A stretch of DNA of 64,000 nt from Anaerolineae bacterium. GTDB taxonomy: Bacteria > Chloroflexota > Anaerolineae > Anaerolineales > Villigracilaceae. The notes under the pieces were generated by a model that worked only from the letters and a program-made list of their open reading frames with translations, ran no database searches and was not told the DNA's origin. Each line of letters begins with the position of its first letter. Within the stretch, counting starts at the first letter, position 1. A program made the translations under genes and the position numbers. Location: the NCBI GenBank assembly GCA_021324435.1, contig JAJPIZ010000025.1, forward strand, positions 1-64,000, in the 5' to 3' direction. Below, one piece after another: positions 41,109-48,432 of this stretch.

Positions 41109-41663
41109 TTATTTCCTCTTGTGGCTTAAACCCTTCAGAACAAGGTAAGCCCGTGCAAGTGTTCCCCCAAATGGCGCCAGCCATGCTGGTGGATTACTAG
41201 GATTCACGGAGAACCAAGCTGTTTCTTGTCCGGCAGAGCCTGTATGTTGTCCCATATGGCCTATGACATTTTTCTTTAGTAAGGTCTTGCTTGCAACCCA
41301 ACAATGAGCTTCGAATGGCGAGATTCCGAGACAAATGCAGTATTCATAATTCTGATCGCGAATTTGTTGGAATTTATATATTCCCGTCTCCCATAAAGTT
41401 GAGAACTTCACCTCTACTTTGTGGCCATTGATTAACATGTCGGCATCAGAATCGGAGCTACCATCCACCGAAAGACCCTTCAGTGCACACCATTGATATA
41501 CTAATCGTTTTCCGAGCTTTCCTTTCGATGCTGAAGGTAAGGATAATACCCATTCAAAAGCGCTACCCGCCCAAGGCGACGAGTCTTTTTGGAACTCCCC
41601 TCGAATAAAATTGGCCGCTGATGCTAGGAGATCAAATTCTGAGTCAGTGCTATTTTGCGACAT
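41109..41663 (-). CDS. Putative type II restriction endonuclease, paralogue of the methyltransferase tail
   Basis: 184 residues aligned over nearly their full length with residues 348-520 of the adjacent methyltransferase (shared FEWVL, KGKL, KFSTLW, GIYKFQQIR, CLGISPF, AHCWV, GGTL). The motif D75-x8-E84-V-K86 (DMLINGHKVEVK) fits a PD-(D/E)xK nuclease site. The methyltransferase copy has FAIK at the same place and lacks the Glu. The stand-alone protein is therefore the likely cutting subunit. It begins 6 nt after the methyltransferase stop codon, and the region is AT-rich relative to its surroundings. Function as an endonuclease is inferred from context and motif. Confidence 0.65.
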   Translation of the reverse strand: MSQNSTDSEFDLLASAANFIRGEFQKDSSPWAGSAFEWVLSLPSASKGKLGKRLVYQWCALKGLSVDGSSDSDADMLINGHKVEVKFSTLWETGIYKFQQIRDQNYEYCICLGISPFEAHCWVASKTLLKKNVIGHMGQHTGSAGQETAWFSVNPSNPPAWLAPFGGTLARAYLVLKGLSHKRK

Positions 41664-41669
41664 CCAGAA

Positions 41670-43232
41670 CTACCTCCTTGTCAGATTCTTGAGGACCTTG
41701 TAAGCTTGATCTAAAGTTCCGCCATGAATGGTGATCCACTCTTCGGGTTCATTTGGATGGACCGCCATCCAGTATTCAGCCCCTTTTGCGCTCTTGTGTT
41801 GAGGTGTAGCATGCATGATTGCATACTTTCGTTCAAAAACCCAACAATGTGCATCGAAAGGAGAAATGCCTAAGCAAATTAGATAATCGAAACCCTTGGG
41901 CCGAATCTGTTGAAATTTATAGATGCCATTTGTCCAAAGGGTTGAAAACTTGATCGCGAATCGAAGACCATTTAGCGAGATCATCTCACTTGAGTCTTTG
42001 ACTGGGTCAAGCTGCAATCCTTTGCTGTTAAGCCAATATCGGATGAGGTCTCCCGCTAACTTACCTTTTTGCCTTGGTGACAAGTGTAGCACCCATTCAA
42101 AAGGACTGTATTCCCATAGGTCATTACTTTCCCCTAGGGCTTCTTGTAAGTGATTTGCTACTCCTGCGAGCATAATAAACTCACTGCTCATCTTCTGTTT
42201 GGGTTGCTGAGGCTTTTGGGTCTCGGGTTTAGTATCTTTTGTTTGAAAAGGGTTAGGATCAAAGTCTATCCACTGAATGTTACTTGCGCCAGAGAATCTC
42301 TTTGCCATTACCTCTAATGCAGATTTGTTGTTGTCGATAAGAATGAAGTTTCTGTTCAGTTCTAGACAGCTTTCTCCAACTGTCCCACTGCCTGCAAAAA
42401 AATCCAATACCACGTCTCCTTCATAAGAAGAGGCTTTTACAATTCGGTCGATCAGTTTTCTAGGCTTTTGAGTGGGATAACCCAATCTTTCTTTACTTCC
42501 TGTGGGAATTATTGTCTGCCACCATATATCATTCTGACCTGTAGGTTGTCGCTTAGAGGCAACCCAAACATCGGTTTGGTATCTATTTCTTGCGAAATGA
42601 ATCCACCAAGTATCAGATGGTGATTTTGGCTCGTTTGTGCCTGTATACAATGCCCACCATGTGTCTGTGGGCATTTTGCCTTTCTCGGCTTTTTCAGGTC
42701 CTACTAAACCAGGAGCCATATAGGGTTCCTTGTCTATATCTTCGCGATTGAAGACATAGTTTCTGGGGTTTTTTGCGTAAAACAAAATATTGTCATGCTT
42801 CGCGGGCCACTTTGACCGTGGCCTACCTCCGTAGTCATAGGCCCAAATAATTTCGTTGAGGAAACCCTCCCTCCCGAAAATATGATCTAGAAGTAACTTG
42901 CAATAATGTGCCTCGCGATAGTCGATATGAAAATACAGGCTTCCAGTGGGCTTCAAGATTCTATAAGCTTCTCGAAGTCTGGGCCTCAGAAAACCGTCAA
43001 TATAAGCATCAAAATTATCATCGTATTCTTGAGTTCCGACTTTTATGGTTCGGTAAGTATTGCCTTTAAATCCCTTTCGATCTCCGCCAGGATCTTGAAT
43101 CGTTCGAATGGTGGTTCTCTTTTGCGTCTTCTTAGTATTGAACGGTGGGTCTATATAGATAAGATCAACTGACTCGCTGGGCAGTTTTTTTAGTATTTTC
43201 AGATTGTCGCCGAAGTAAATCTTGTTGTCCAT
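41670..43232 (-). CDS. DNA methyltransferase of the beta class with C-terminal nuclease-like domain
   Basis: 520 residues. The catalytic DPPF is at 28-31 and the SAM-binding FAGSGT at 279-284, the order of beta-class amino-methyltransferases (N6-adenine or N4-cytosine). The target-recognition region between them holds four related motifs, TDTWW (189), SDTWW (206), TDVWV (220) and NDIWW (234). A Gln/Pro/Lys linker (331-347) leads to a C-terminal domain (348-520) homologous to the neighbouring 184-residue protein, but with the nuclease Glu replaced (FAIK). It should protect host DNA from its partner; the dead nuclease domain may help site recognition or dimerisation. AT-rich composition suggests recent transfer. 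Confidence 0.85.
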   Translation of the reverse strand: MDNKIYFGDNLKILKKLPSESVDLIYIDPPFNTKKTQKRTTIRTIQDPGGDRKGFKGNTYRTIKVGTQEYDDNFDAYIDGFLRPRLREAYRILKPTGSLYFHIDYREAHYCKLLLDHIFGREGFLNEIIWAYDYGGRPRSKWPAKHDNILFYAKNPRNYVFNREDIDKEPYMAPGLVGPEKAEKGKMPTDTWWALYTGTNEPKSPSDTWWIHFARNRYQTDVWVASKRQPTGQNDIWWQTIIPTGSKERLGYPTQKPRKLIDRIVKASSYEGDVVLDFFAGSGTVGESCLELNRNFILIDNNKSALEVMAKRFSGASNIQWIDFDPNPFQTKDTKPETQKPQQPKQKMSSEFIMLAGVANHLQEALGESNDLWEYSPFEWVLHLSPRQKGKLAGDLIRYWLNSKGLQLDPVKDSSEMISLNGLRFAIKFSTLWTNGIYKFQQIRPKGFDYLICLGISPFDAHCWVFERKYAIMHATPQHKSAKGAEYWMAVHPNEPEEWITIHGGTLDQAYKVLKNLTRR

Positions 43233-44508: not shown

Positions 44509-44781
44509 ATGGCCGTTCTAAAAGTCGGTGCGTTGATGCGATACTACATCAATAACCAGCCGCAAGCCGTTGTGCATGGCGCGACGGTGCTTGAGGCTTT
44601 GCAGGACGCTGTTACTCGGTATCCTGCGCTCAAGTTTCATGTTTTTGATTCGAATGGTAAGATACGCCGCCATATCAACATCTTTGTCAACAGTCAAAAC
44701 ATTCGAGATTTAAAAGGCCTGAAGACCAAAATCAACGAAGATGATCAAATTATGTTGCTGGCCTCGATCTCGGGTGGGTGA
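44509..44781 (+). CDS. Ubiquitin-like sulfur carrier protein (MoaD/ThiS/CysO fold)
   Basis: 90 residues ending in the free Gly-Gly that is adenylated and thiocarboxylated in this family (SISGG). Core: NNQPQAVVHGATVLEALQDAVTRYPAL, HINIFVNSQNIRDLKGLKTKINEDDQIMLLASISGG, close in pattern to mycobacterial CysO and to MoaD. It probably carries sulfur for the CysM-like enzyme encoded next. The -10 box TACAAT (44497-44502) ends 6 nt before the ATG and no ribosome site is visible, suggesting a leaderless mRNA. Another carrier of the same fold is encoded at 46902. Confidence 0.85.
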   Translation: MAVLKVGALMRYYINNQPQAVVHGATVLEALQDAVTRYPALKFHVFDSNGKIRRHINIFVNSQNIRDLKGLKTKINEDDQIMLLASISGG

Positions 44782-44866
44782 GAATTCAATTAGTTTTTTT
44801 ACCGTTAATCTTGACAAATCTGGCAAATTTTGTAGAATATCTATCATAAATATCTAGGAAATTCCA

Positions 44867-44911
44867 ATGATGATTACTAACTATTGCTTGTGTCTGAGGC
44901 GGGGCTCGTAA
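44867..44911 (+). CDS. Putative cysteine leader peptide MMITNYCLCLRRGS
   Basis: A 14-codon reading frame with an AGGAA ribosome site 6 nt before its first ATG. It contains two Cys codons (C7 and C9) followed by LRRGS, the makeup expected of an attenuator leader that senses cysteinyl-tRNA. The frame's 3' end overlaps the 5' arm of a hairpin (44896-44902 with 44914-44920). It lies 130 nt before the cysM-like gene, and a terminator-type hairpin follows it. Confidence 0.6.
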   Translation: MMITNYCLCLRRGS

Positions 44912-45031
44912 CGCCGCCTCTTCAAGAAGCCGATAGCCAACGAACTTGAAGGACGGTGTGCGACTCCGCATTCGAAACAAATCGAATCGCGCGACGCCTG
45001 CACGCGTCCTTTTTGTTTTCGTTGGCTTTTT
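44896..45031 (+). promoter_or_regulatory. Candidate transcription attenuator upstream of cysM
   Basis: Three pairings are visible. GAGGCGG/CCGCCTC (44896-44902 with 44914-44920) covers the leader's last codons. TTCAAG/CTTGAA (44921-44926 with 44945-44950) encloses AGCCAACGAA (44935-44944). That segment can instead pair with TTCGTTGGCT (45018-45027), with an inner AAGGACG/CGTCCTT stem, and a T run follows directly. The second and third structures exclude each other, as in Trp- or His-type attenuation. Confidence 0.55.
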
Positions 45032-45043
45032 GTTTGGAGATTC

Positions 45044-45988
45044 ATGACACTGACGCAAATACCCAAAATCCAATTCAATGAAACGACAGGACTCGAATCT
45101 TTGGTGGGGAACACGCCTCTGCTTCCGCTTCATCGCGTGACCCGAAACCTGCCGCGCCAAATTCAGGTCTTTGCCAAGGCTGAATGGTTCAACCCGGGCG
45201 GCTCTGTCAAGGACCGGCCCGCGCTCAACATTATTCGCGCGGCCCTCGACAGCGGCGAACTTACATCCGGCAAACGTTTGCTTGACTCAACATCGGGCAA
45301 CATGGGCATTTCGTATGCAACCTTCGGCGCGGCGCTGGGAATCTCGGTGACGCTCTGCGTTCCTGCCAACGCCAGCCCGGAGCGGATCACGATCTTACGG
45401 GCCCTCGGTGCCGAGATCATATTGACCGATCCATCCGAAGGCTCGGATGGCGCGATTTTGAAAGCGCGCGAAATGGCCGCTGAAAAGCCAGACTTGTATT
45501 GGTATGCCAATCAATACAACAACCCGGCCAATTGGCAGGCGCATTATCAAACCACCGGCCCCGAAATTCTGAATCAAGCGAATGAGAAGGTCACTCACTT
45601 TGTGGCCGGGCTTGGGACGTCAGGTACGTTGATGGGAACAGGCCGTTACTTGCGCGAGCAATTGCCTACCGTAAAGATCATCGCCTTTCAACCGGATGCG
45701 CCCTTTCACGGACTCGAAGGACTCAAACACATGCCGTCCGCGATCAAACCCGGGATTTATGATCCGTCTTTTGCGGACGAAACGCTCGAGGTGCGGACTG
45801 AGGCGGCGCACGAAATGGTTCGTCGCTTGGCGCGCGAAGAAGGTTTGTTCGTTGGAATCTCATCCGGCGCGGCGATGGTCGCGGCGTTGAAAGTCGCGGA
45901 AGAATTAAAGGAAGGCGTCGTCGTCACAATCTTCCCCGATGCGGGCTACAAGTATTTGAGCGACAAGGCCCTGTGGGAGGGAAAGTGA
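45044..45988 (+). CDS. cysM: Cysteine synthase, CysM-like (PLP enzyme)
   Basis: 314 residues. PLP-binding Lys in NPGGSVKDRPALNII, phosphate loop STSGNMGIS, AGLGTSGTLMGTGR, and the C-terminal ISSGAAMVAAL with GYKYLSDKALW, close to M. tuberculosis CysM, which uses O-phosphoserine and a thiocarboxylated carrier. Two carrier genes and a JAMM peptidase lie around it, so the same carrier-based route is likely. It starts after a putative leader peptide and attenuator, with GGAG before the ATG. Its stop codon overlaps the GTG start of the peptidase gene. Confidence 0.9.
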   Translation: MTLTQIPKIQFNETTGLESLVGNTPLLPLHRVTRNLPRQIQVFAKAEWFNPGGSVKDRPALNIIRAALDSGELTSGKRLLDSTSGNMGISYATFGAALGISVTLCVPANASPERITILRALGAEIILTDPSEGSDGAILKAREMAAEKPDLYWYANQYNNPANWQAHYQTTGPEILNQANEKVTHFVAGLGTSGTLMGTGRYLREQLPTVKIIAFQPDAPFHGLEGLKHMPSAIKPGIYDPSFADETLEVRTEAAHEMVRRLAREEGLFVGISSGAAMVAALKVAEELKEGVVVTIFPDAGYKYLSDKALWEGK

Positions 45989-46422
45989 CCCTGCGACTTT
46001 CCAAAGATGTCCTGAGTCAAATTCACTTGCATGGCGAGCAGGCTTATCCGGAAGAAGGCGCCGGTTTTTTGCTTGGCGCAGATGAAGCGGAGCGCGTAGT
46101 GCAGGCCATCTTCCCGCTGTCGAATTCGCGCGAAGACGCGGCGCGGCACAATCGTTATTTGATCACGCCTCAAGATTATTTGAAGGCTGAGATGGAAGCA
46201 GATCGCCTGAATCTGAGTCTGATCGGTGTATTCCACTCGCATCCCGATCATCCGAATCGTCCCTCGGAATTTGATCGCGAGTGGGCACAACCATTTTTCT
46301 CATACATCATCACGAGCGTGCAATCTGGCAAAGCTGTTGAGAGTCGCTCGTGGCGACTGATCGAAGATCGTTCACAGTTCGTGGAAGAGAAAATTCATAT
46401 TACATCACCCGTGTCACCCTGA
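45985..46422 (+). CDS. mec: JAMM/MPN zinc metallopeptidase (Mec-like)
   Basis: 145 residues. The JAMM metal site is HSHPDHPNRPSEFD, with the upstream catalytic Glu in PEEGAGFLLG, the layout of M. tuberculosis Mec, which frees cysteine from CysO-Cys. The GTG start (45985) overlaps the cysM stop (GTGA), with AGGGAAA ahead, so both are translationally coupled. The last residues SPVSP and the stop codon come from a palindromic repeat. The same enzyme class could also trim residues after Gly-Gly on the tailed carrier at 46902. Confidence 0.88.
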   Translation: MTLRLSKDVLSQIHLHGEQAYPEEGAGFLLGADEAERVVQAIFPLSNSREDAARHNRYLITPQDYLKAEMEADRLNLSLIGVFHSHPDHPNRPSEFDREWAQPFFSYIITSVQSGKAVESRSWRLIEDRSQFVEEKIHITSPVSP

Positions 46423-46497
46423 GCGTAGCGAAGGGTCTTGCCTGTTAGATATTAGACTCTTCGGTCGCCTGCGAAATGGCTCCCTCAGAGTGACACA
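46411..46497. repeat. Palindromic repeat, family F (copy 2), at the mec stop codon
   Basis: GTGTCACCCTGAGCGTAGCGAAGGGTCT on the left and AGACTCTTCGG...CTCAGAGTGACAC on the right form an inverted repeat that supplies the end and the stop codon of the JAMM gene. Related to 22785-22860. Confidence 0.65.
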
Positions 46498-46514
46498 ATA
46501 AGAAGGAGTTTCAA

Positions 46515-46820
46515 ATGTCTCTATATTTCGTTCGCCATCAGCACTGTCCGGAAACCTGCCCGGCCAAGGATCCTGAAATGGGCCAGATGCTGGTCCAGCA
46601 TGTGGATAAGAAAAATGCACGCAAGTTCGGCGTGGATATTCTCGGCGATGCTGTGATTGATGGTCAGCACACTTTTGTGTTGATCGTCGAGGCGGAAGAC
46701 AAACAATATATTGAGAATTTCATGCAACCATTCTCGCAGGCCGGCTCGGTCGAGATTCTCTCCGCTTCGACGTGTGAGGCGGTTGCCGAGCGGCAGGGTT
46801 GTGACCCTGTCCCGGCCTAG
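46515..46820 (+). CDS. Small Cys/His-rich protein of the cysteine locus
   Basis: 101 residues with an AAGGAG ribosome site. The start YFVRHQHCPETCPAKDPEMGQMLVQHV has paired Cys and His residues; the middle (GVDILGDAVIDGQHTFVLIVEAEDKQYIENFMQPFSQAGSVEILSASTCEAV) looks like a ferredoxin-like alpha/beta fold. I know similar short proteins only as uncharacterised. Its position between the peptidase and the second carrier suggests a role in sulfur handling, perhaps metal or thiol binding, but this is inference. It shares a loose pattern with the protein at 4065-4325. Confidence 0.7.
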   Translation: MSLYFVRHQHCPETCPAKDPEMGQMLVQHVDKKNARKFGVDILGDAVIDGQHTFVLIVEAEDKQYIENFMQPFSQAGSVEILSASTCEAVAERQGCDPVPA

Positions 46821-46901
46821 GCTGTTGAAATGTGGCTGGGTGAAGGATAAAATAGATTCAACCTTCACCCAGCCTGAAATCATGGCTTGAAGAGGTTTAT
46901 T

Positions 46902-47219
46902 GTGGCAACGTTAAAAATACCAACGCCTTTGCGAAGTTACACAAACGGGCTGGCCGAGGTCTCCGTGCGCGGCGCGAGCATCGCGGAAGCGATGGCTGAC
47001 CTGACGCAGAAATTTCCCGCGTTGAAGCCGCATCTTTACAGCGGCGACGGAGAACTGCGCCCGTTTGTGAATCTGTTCGTCGGCGAAAACAACATCAAGG
47101 ATTTGCAGGGACTGGACACTCCGCTGGATGAAAATGCGCGCGTGATTCTGATCCCTTCGATTGCTGGTGGAAAAGAAATTAAACACGAAGGGCACAATGG
47201 TCACGAAGGAAGAAAGTGA
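46902..47219 (+). CDS. CysO-like sulfur carrier with a C-terminal extension past Gly-Gly
   Basis: 105 residues. The body matches CysO (TLKIPTPLRSYTNG, FVNLFVGENNIKDLQGLDTPLDENARVILIPSIAGG). Gly-Gly is at residues 89-90 (47166-47171), where CysO normally ends. Here 15 more residues follow (KEIKHEGHNGHEGRK), encoded by an inverted repeat of family E. Adenylation of carriers requires an exposed Gly-Gly, so the tail must be removed first or the protein is inactive. The JAMM peptidase encoded just upstream is a candidate for trimming. GTG 46902 is chosen for the GAGG site and the family start. Confidence 0.85.
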   Translation: MATLKIPTPLRSYTNGLAEVSVRGASIAEAMADLTQKFPALKPHLYSGDGELRPFVNLFVGENNIKDLQGLDTPLDENARVILIPSIAGGKEIKHEGHNGHEGRK

Positions 47220-47259
47220 GTCAAGATTTTTAACCTTTGTGTACTTCGTGTCCTTTGTG
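47184..47259. repeat. Dispersed inverted repeat, family E (copy 2), at the end of the carrier gene
   Basis: The left arm (47184-47209, CACGAAGGGCACAATGG...) and right arm (47234-47259, ...TTCGTGTCCTTTGTG) pair imperfectly. The left arm is translated as the tail of the carrier protein. Confidence 0.7.
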
Positions 47260-47280
47260 ATGAAAAAGTGAGAGAGAGAT

Positions 47281-48432
47281 ATGCTTCCTGGTTTAACTCG
47301 TGATGAAATTTTGCGCTACTCGCGCCATCTTTTGATTCCCGAAGTGGGTCTTGAAGGCCAGCGCAAATTGAAAGGCTCGTCGGCGCTCATCATTGGCACG
47401 GGCGGGCTGGGGTCGCCGGTCGCGTTGTATTTGGCGGCGGCCGGCATCGGTCGCATCGGACTCGTGGATTACGATGTGGTCGATTCGTCGAATCTGCAAC
47501 GTCAGGTGATCCATGGAACATCCACGGTCGGCAAATTGAAAGTCGAAAGCGCGAAGGCAAAACTTGTGGATTTGAATCCTGATATCGAAGTGGATGTGTA
47601 TAATGAGCCGTTCACTTCGGAAAATGCCATGCGCATCGCGCGGGACTATGATATTTTGCTCGACGGAACCGACAATTTCCCAACCCGCTACTTGACCAAC
47701 GACGTGGCTGTGTTTCTCGGCAAGCCGAATGTGTATGCCTCGATCTATCGTTTCGATGGACAGGTCAGTGTCTTCTATGCAAAGGAAGGCCCGTGCTATC
47801 GCTGTCTCTTCCCCGAGCCGCCTCCGCCGGGACTGGTCCCTTCATGTGCGGAGGGCGGCGTGCTCGGCGTTTTGCCCGGCACAATTGGAACGATCCAGGC
47901 GACCGAGGCGCTGAAAGTTTTGCTCGGCATCGGCGAGCCGCTGATCGGAAAACTCCTGCTTTACAACGCGCTCGACATGTCGTTCGATTTTGTGAAGTTG
48001 AAGAAGAATCCCAATTGCCGCGTATGCGGACCGAACGCTGACATCAAAGAGTTGATAGATTACGAAGAATTTTGCGGCGTCCCCAGCCATGACCACGACG
48101 AAGGATCGGCTGGCGCAGGCTGGGACATCACCGCGCCCGAACTCGCCGCGCGGCTCAAGCAGAATCATTTGAAATTGCTGGACGTCCGTGAGCCGCATGA
48201 GTTGGAGATTTCGGCTTTGCCAAATGCAGTTAATATTCCGCTGGGAACGTTGGCGGCGCGGCTTTCTGAGCTCGACTCAGCAGAAGACATGGTCGTGTTC
48301 TGCAAATCAGGGACTCGCTCCGCGCGGGCGCTGGAATTATTGGCCAGCGCTGGATTCAAGAAAGTGAAGAATCTGAAAGGCGGCATCAACGCCTGGGCAA
48401 GAGAAGTGGATACCAGTCTGCCGATTTATTAG
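47281..48432 (+). CDS. MoeB/ThiF-type activating enzyme fused to rhodanese (MoeZ-like)
   Basis: 383 residues. The E1-like domain (about 1-260) has the ATP loop GTGGLGSPVALYLAAAGIG, the DNFPTRY substrate segment, the CxxC zinc pairs (CYRCLFPEP; NCRVCG) and the adenylation Arg/Asp set. A rhodanese domain (about 285-380) carries the active Cys in VVFCKSGTRSARAL. This fusion adenylates a Gly-Gly carrier and then transfers sulfur to it, as MoeZ does for CysO. It follows the tailed carrier directly. GAGAGAG lies before the ATG. Confidence 0.93.
   Translation: MLPGLTRDEILRYSRHLLIPEVGLEGQRKLKGSSALIIGTGGLGSPVALYLAAAGIGRIGLVDYDVVDSSNLQRQVIHGTSTVGKLKVESAKAKLVDLNPDIEVDVYNEPFTSENAMRIARDYDILLDGTDNFPTRYLTNDVAVFLGKPNVYASIYRFDGQVSVFYAKEGPCYRCLFPEPPPPGLVPSCAEGGVLGVLPGTIGTIQATEALKVLLGIGEPLIGKLLLYNALDMSFDFVKLKKNPNCRVCGPNADIKELIDYEEFCGVPSHDHDEGSAGAGWDITAPELAARLKQNHLKLLDVREPHELEISALPNAVNIPLGTLAARLSELDSAEDMVVFCKSGTRSARALELLASAGFKKVKNLKGGINAWAREVDTSLPIY

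Follow-up and report, generated by a model that had tools for sequence, protein, structure and literature searches.

A Type II-like restriction-modification variant whose methyltransferase carries a disabled copy of the partner nuclease

Analysis of a 64,000-nt stretch of contig JAJPIZ010000025.1 of an Anaerolineae bacterium (GCA_021324435.1), referred to below as the window, revealed on its minus strand (41109-43232) a DNA methyltransferase whose C-terminal part is an inactivated copy of the predicted nuclease encoded beside it. This arrangement is conserved in other genomes and would be a variant of Type II restriction-modification (R-M); as in Type II systems, the nuclease gene adjoins the methyltransferase gene. 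Judging from the sequences, we put at slightly under an even chance (roughly 0.45) the reading that the disabled domain is a non-cutting DNA-binding module, which aims the methyltransferase at the sequence cut by the nuclease.

The stand-alone nuclease is designated R, the methyltransferase M, and the nuclease-like C-terminal domain of the fusion protein (M-Rf) is designated Rf. Loci were classified as type A (M-Rf and R), type B (M, a dead M-like protein named M', and R) or plain pairs (M and R). The features of the window locus are as follows.

41109..41663, minus strand: R, predicted stand-alone PD-(D/E)XK nuclease, 184 aa; D75, E84 and K86 present, K52 in place of the helix glutamate
41670..43232, minus strand: M-Rf, methyltransferase with a C-terminal dead nuclease domain, 520 aa
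42198..43232, minus strand: M domain, M-Rf residues 1-345, beta-class amino-methyltransferase fold with DPPF (28-31) and FAGSG (279-283)
42468..42746, minus strand: presumed target-recognition region of M, residues about 163-255, with extra DTWW-like copies
41670..42185, minus strand: Rf, inactivated nuclease copy, M-Rf residues 350-520; M417, A426 and K428 align with D75, E84 and K86 of R
41672..41679, minus strand: ribosome-binding site of R, AAGGAGGT, overlapping the 3' end of the M-Rf gene (read from the sequence)

M-Rf lies upstream and is separated from R by 6 bases. Together with the position of the R ribosome-binding site inside the 3' end of the M-Rf gene, this short gap fits a single operon with M-Rf as its first gene. 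Elsewhere in the window, at 44509-48432, inspection of the translations by eye revealed a likely sulfur-carrier cluster, composed of two small ThiS/MoaD-like genes and of cysteine-synthase-like, JAMM-like and MoeB-rhodanese-like genes. At the place of the operon, three of five congeners (L146, L147 and L148; about 80-1510) carry a different beta-class methylase, which adjoins the same response-regulator gene and, in L146 and L148, also the end of an L,D-transpeptidase-like gene. The best match of this methylase in the window genome is M itself.

The nuclease, the methyltransferase and the disabled nuclease copy

R was matched by the PADLOC family PDLC03515 (REase_II; 1.1e-60), and no family of Pfam or NCBIfam scored above cut-off. 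Since a sequence search of solved structures gave no significant match either (best E 0.75), a fold comparison was needed. The model of R (mean pLDDT 91, pTM 0.83, from a 79-row alignment) was closest to I-Ssp6803I (Z 12.2, rmsd 2.6, 121 residues), followed by NhoI/Eco15I (best Z 10.2) and Hjc (Z 8.4), with Z values below 8 regarded as possibly reflecting merely a common arrangement. We take I-Ssp6803I, NhoI and Hjc to be PD-(D/E)XK enzymes. Identity to these nearest solved folds was 10-14% in the fold alignments, and the common fold implies no common target or partner. In the model, D75 lies just ahead of strand 76-78, and E84 and K86 lie within strand 81-89, so that D and (D/E)xK occupy neighbouring strands, and R is predicted to have the PD-(D/E)XK nuclease fold. 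A predicted structure lacking a nuclease fold had been named beforehand, in an earlier note on this DNA, as an outcome that could refute the nuclease assignment; the fold obtained agrees with the assignment.

The catalytic residues are strongly conserved in the 86 stand-alone R proteins (D75 in 86, E84 in 84 and K86 in 85). The window R follows this pattern, as the earlier note had read from its D75...E84-V-K86 motif, but has lost an otherwise conserved glutamate of helix 44-61: position 52 is a glutamate in 70 of 73 plain-pair R proteins, in none of the 13 R proteins of types A and B and in none of the 11 Rf domains, and it is a lysine in the window. The corresponding helix of other PD-(D/E)XK enzymes has a glutamate that contributes to metal binding, and its loss may mean altered catalysis in R. 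Type B R proteins lack E52 although no Rf is present there; the loss therefore goes with R even where Rf is absent, and it probably came before the Rf duplication. Two plain pairs, of Arthrobacter and Paeniglutamicibacter (L093:4998-5528 and L094), encode an R with Q in place of E84 and K in place of E52; next to a methylase that looks live, this nuclease may be dead or altered.

With R as the query, matches were obtained in neither plasmid records nor viral contigs; five viral-contig loci were found with the R alignment as the query, of which L143 (distant) and L144 (a fragment) do not enter the residue counts. Thirteen phage records matched R, all of them cyanophages (e.g. S-BM3, S-RIM14, S-ShM2) and 12 annotated as hypothetical; these relatives are distant, with about 40% identity over residues 29-151 (two thirds of R).

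The N-terminal part of M-Rf was matched by PF01555 of Pfam (3.9e-46) and by PADLOC PDLC03300 (MTase_II; 6.4e-132). Motif IV (DPPF) precedes motif I (FAGSG) within an N6_N4_Mtase fold, the order that defines beta-class amino-methyltransferases. The best solved structures for M were MboIIA (Z 25.9), M.BceJIV, CcrM and M.RsrI, all with Z of 24-26, and chains of METTL3 and MTA1 were among its structural neighbours. Residues about 163-255 are presumed to form the target-recognition region because they are flanked by motif IV and the GYPTQKP segment. The M-Rf model (mean pLDDT 80) mostly falls below 50 between residues 169 and 240 of this region (segments 169-177, 185-200 and 209-240). In an alignment of 91 M rows, the extra DTWW-like copies were also seen in several other type A methylases, and were absent from L023, L045 and L046. 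One viral-contig methylase (L143:2058-3875) has a large insert in the recognition region, between PTD and CWWHT, which appears intein-like by eye.

The C-terminus of M-Rf and R are clear paralogues, as the earlier note had proposed: BLASTP aligned R 8-182 with M-Rf 350-520 at 78 of 175 identical residues (45%, E 3e-48), the family PDLC03515 that matches R also matches M-Rf 351-511 (7e-33), and the relationship recurs in other genomes. The E value and the open frames of all 11 M-Rf genes rule out chance similarity or a frame artefact as the source of the likeness. One apparent single-chain M-R protein (L026, an open frame of 524-531 aa) proved to be a plain pair, in which the frame of R simply happens to stay open further upstream, M being encoded in a different one.

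In the window, D75...E84-V-K86 of R corresponds to M417...A426-I-K428 of M-Rf. The replacement of VEVK by FAIK, which had been pointed out from the sequence, was thus borne out, and the first metal-binding aspartate proved to be gone as well. The same losses were found throughout the 11 Rf domains: the aspartate is kept in none, the glutamate in none (A in nine, S in two) and the lysine in all. Most of the conserved scaffold persists. Of 33 positions conserved in at least 95% of the 86 stand-alone R proteins, 21 are retained in at least 10 of the 11 Rf domains; the active-site lysine and most of the FQQxR and QH residues are likewise present. Four residues, D75, E84, Q104 and T148, are retained in no Rf; Q104 is invariant in R (86/86), and a short loop ahead of the QH motif is shortened in Rf. 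In the M-Rf model, residues 381-520 are confident (block means 84-97) and residues 350-380 weaker. The order of helices and strands is nearly that of R, the short strand 66-68 of R being missing from the list for Rf; the fold-match lists of the whole M-Rf model were filled by methyltransferases.

Could Rf still be a nuclease with a rearranged active site? An acid is kept at position 147 (E in 11/11), as is K86, but none of the 11 domains retains either PD-(D/E)XK acid or the helix glutamate. We regard this as the least probable of the readings considered here, and scarcely credible; by the two metal-binding acids that an active PD-(D/E)XK enzyme has, Rf falls outside the active members in 11 of 11 cases.

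Distribution, origin and selection

Type A loci with the same Rf losses were found in nine further genomes, and in a tenth (L059) M-Rf lies at a contig end, with R unseen. The fusion is known from 10 genomes of one order of Chloroflexota, and from one 5.9-kb contig labelled Draconibacterium (L063), which may be misbinned. In the window's family the nuclease family was present in 9 of 152 genomes (eight type A, one plain pair, G477). It was present in 13 of 400 genomes in a sample of the order (nine type A, including G757, whose contig ends before R; three type B; one plain pair), and in 15 of 400 genomes in a sample of the phylum (three type A, one type B, six plain pairs and five with weak matches only).

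Among named genomes, the best 80 of 105 relatives comprised nine type A loci, two type B loci and 69 loci with a single nuclease and no type-B dead methylase, so that plain pairs predominate among the loci found. M adjoins the nuclease in 68 of these 69 loci (L122 ends before M), and in L132 and L139 the single nuclease is split over two frames. Within the same 80, plain pairs occur in Chloroflexota, Planctomycetota, Gemmatimonadota, actinobacteria, Meiothermus and others; of the nine type A loci L063 alone was new, the other eight, like both type B loci, coming from genomes that the set already contained.

The tree of R and Rf comprised 54 rows, with positions 52, 75 and 84 omitted, and its bootstrap values were not fully settled. 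It included 30 of 73 plain-pair R rows; the other 43, and 47 of 74 plain-pair M rows in the M tree, were left out because of size. Matches below 100 bits were excluded from the R set, the R rows of L132 and L139 were dropped because of their frame break, 14 named-genome loci repeating genomes already in the set were dropped, and one plain pair found later (L145, genome G821) stands outside all counts.

The analysis revealed that the 11 Rf domains form one clade (100/99), which lies inside a 24-row clade that also contains the R proteins of types A and B (97/100); the 30 plain-pair R proteins lie outside it. The duplication may have preceded or followed the split of types A and B (support 89/86). 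In the M tree, the type A methylases form one group (93/85) within a clade of types A and B (97/96). By the tree of R and Rf, Rf has a single origin; it looks like a duplicate that arose within this order's own R lineage, became joined to M and was inactivated. The course of events set out in the earlier note, namely gene duplication, fusion and loss of catalysis, is supported by this topology and by the loss of D and E, and the retention of K, in 11 of 11 domains.

Rf is apparently under purifying selection. In all 55 pairs of Rf sequences pN (0.16-0.41) was below pS (0.59-0.89), and dN/dS was 0.10-0.41 in the 23 pairs with a computable dS, values that are rough because synonymous sites are near saturation. 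The domain nevertheless evolves more quickly than R, with mean identities (45 pairs) of 0.49 for Rf, 0.66 for R and 0.70 for M. This faster change would suit a reading of Rf as a by-product of gene fusion with no present role. Such a relic is very improbable, given 11 intact frames out of 11, the single origin, the excess of pS over pN in every pair, and the retention of K86 and of most FQQ and QH residues. At equal M identity, the R proteins of type A (L058 left out) are better conserved than those of plain pairs.

A mirror arrangement was detected in three genomes of the same order (G311, G530 and G678), where the operon has the order M, M', R.

L025:5520-6341: dead methylase-family protein M' between M and R
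L056:4037-4789: dead methylase-family protein M' between M and R
L057:4051-4818: dead methylase-family protein M' between M and R

M' still matches methylase families (PADLOC PDLC03300, 1.1e-41 to 1.2e-67; Pfam PF01555), with KPPV, KPPS or SLPK in place of the DPPF of motif IV and with the GYPTQKP segment missing; the FAGTG letters of motif I are retained in one of the three (L056). M' also retains, with changes, the segment PYMAPGLV...GKLPTDTWW usual for the family, which is shortened and changed in the live type B M. M' may have an origin other than duplication of its own M: the three M' rows, with branches of great length, lie outside the methylase clade of types A and B, their placement being unsure, and two of them are most similar to plain-pair methylases (46-47% to L081), the third to another M'. 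Type B R proteins are 58-61% identical to the window R, and no Rf occurs in these operons. Two sister lineages each keep one disabled enzyme, a nuclease copy in type A and a methylase in type B.

One M-Rf operon (L058:84-2170) encodes an R that groups with the type B R of L057 (100/97). R therefore does not look tied to its own Rf, and from the tree it appears to have been exchanged between type A and type B operons.

Possible roles of the disabled domain

In the reading of Rf as a module that aims M, a Type II-like operon has the following history and action: (i) M has captured a duplicate of its partner nuclease; (ii) the duplicate, fused to the C-terminus of M, has lost D75 and E84 but still has its predicted fold, the lysine of the active site and the residues of FQQxR and QH; (iii) R would cut unmodified DNA, with M modifying the same site; and (iv) Rf would bind the site of R without cutting and so aim M there. 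Types A and B have in common an R and an M that looks live, the dead part being the one that varies; taken with the exchange of R at L058, this favours a role of Rf beside M. Type B has a close R without Rf, but a dead M', and the extra dead part of both types can accordingly be read as a partner of M and not of R.

Three observations argue against Rf as an aiming module. Its faster change relative to R is more than would be expected of a domain reading a fixed site; the loss of Q104 in all 11 domains and the shortened loop before QH could either of them touch DNA recognition; and the extra conservation of type A R (L058 left out) might reflect a constraint on R from the surface of a partner.

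The last of these bears on the main rival, in which R would dock on M-Rf through a kept dimer surface, giving one restriction-and-modification complex with a single live nuclease site; it would nick DNA, or would need a second such complex in order to cut. The slow change of type A R, the retention of 21 of the 33 conserved scaffold positions in at least 10 of 11 domains beside a clean loss of the metal-binding acids, and the loss of E52 in types A and B (0/13, against 70/73 in plain pairs), by which catalysis may have changed, are all compatible with such a heterodimer. However, type B R proteins equally lack E52 with no Rf in the operon, the R of L058 groups with type B despite its M-Rf operon, and dimerisation of R is assumed from other Type II nucleases. 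On balance we hold a heterodimer of R and Rf to be rather unlikely.

A second possibility is that Rf restrains R until the genome is methylated, either by pairing with it into a dead heterodimer or by shielding host sites. The position of M-Rf as the first gene of the operon would suit such a brake, and a catalytically dead paralogue would be a ready dominant negative. Against it, 69 of the best 80 of 105 relatives manage with a single nuclease and without the dead methylase of type B, which leaves this role improbable.

If Rf does aim M, the two sister lineages might share one history: the nuclease of the lineage would have changed and the methylase followed, in type A by means of a welded dead nuclease reading the target for both enzymes, and in type B by means of a disabled methylase beside the live one. 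We offer this borrowing of recognition tentatively, as a proposition with perhaps one chance in three.

Relation to known systems and avoided sequences

The closest described system is the ordinary Type II pair with a beta-class methyltransferase (PDLC03515 and PDLC03300), which has the same R and M families in adjacent genes; in contrast to it, M here carries a disabled R copy, and R lacks the helix glutamate. Type IIC/IIG enzymes (MmeI, BcgI, TspGWI) are fused restriction-modification proteins. Like M-Rf, they combine a methyltransferase and a nuclease fold in one chain, whereas in M-Rf the nuclease part is dead and a live-looking copy is separate, so that no active nuclease resides in the chain. 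In the pairs METTL3-METTL14 and MTA1-MTA9, a live methyltransferase has a dead relative as its partner, METTL14 and MTA9 being catalytically dead. The M and M' of type B would resemble this as putative partners, but belong to a bacterial R-M operon.

PMC4081073 treats MmeI and BcgI, and describes Type IIT heterodimeric nucleases (BbvCI, Bpu10I, BstNBI/BspD6I), with catalytic sites in both parts, as well as engineered nicking dimers with one dead site. R and Rf are likewise two nuclease-type parts, possibly a heterodimer, but one of them is dead and joined to a methylase, and the metal-binding acids are present in one copy of the two. The earlier note did not recognise the arrangement as a described R-M class; among the open-access papers listed by our searches, no title or abstract opening described a methylase bearing an inactive copy of its own nuclease.

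Type II nucleases and their methyltransferases mostly share no sequence, and how both recognise the same site is an old question. The question becomes testable with a methylase to which an inactivated duplicate of its nuclease is attached, and the dead methylase of the sister systems is a natural comparison; borrowed recognition, if true, would show one way in which R and M proteins that are unrelated acquire a common specificity in nature. Dead-nuclease domains would also be useful as site-specific binding modules, if they still bind DNA.

A search for the target site drew attention to GCWGC, the most avoided of 512 5-mers in the window genome (O/E 0.16, 220 kb). It is also the most avoided in two type A genomes (G064, 0.58; G224, 0.52) and two type B genomes (G311, 0.19; G530, 0.15). 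As a candidate target it was nevertheless rejected: avoidance is also seen in each of six related genomes that lack the operon (0.25 to 0.78, first rank in four), and it is unavoided in five genomes of types A and B (G412, 0.95; G460, 0.93; G757, 1.04; G668, 1.21; G678, 1.10). When 193 palindromic or near-palindromic sites were compared between types A and B on the one hand and plain pairs and negatives on the other, none passed the Bonferroni line of 0.00026 (smallest p 0.010); with samples of 40-220 kb per genome, weak avoidance would escape detection. Among 15 sampled genomes of family f1, GCWGC avoidance varied with or without the operon (O/E 0.16-0.95), which points to a cause other than the operon.
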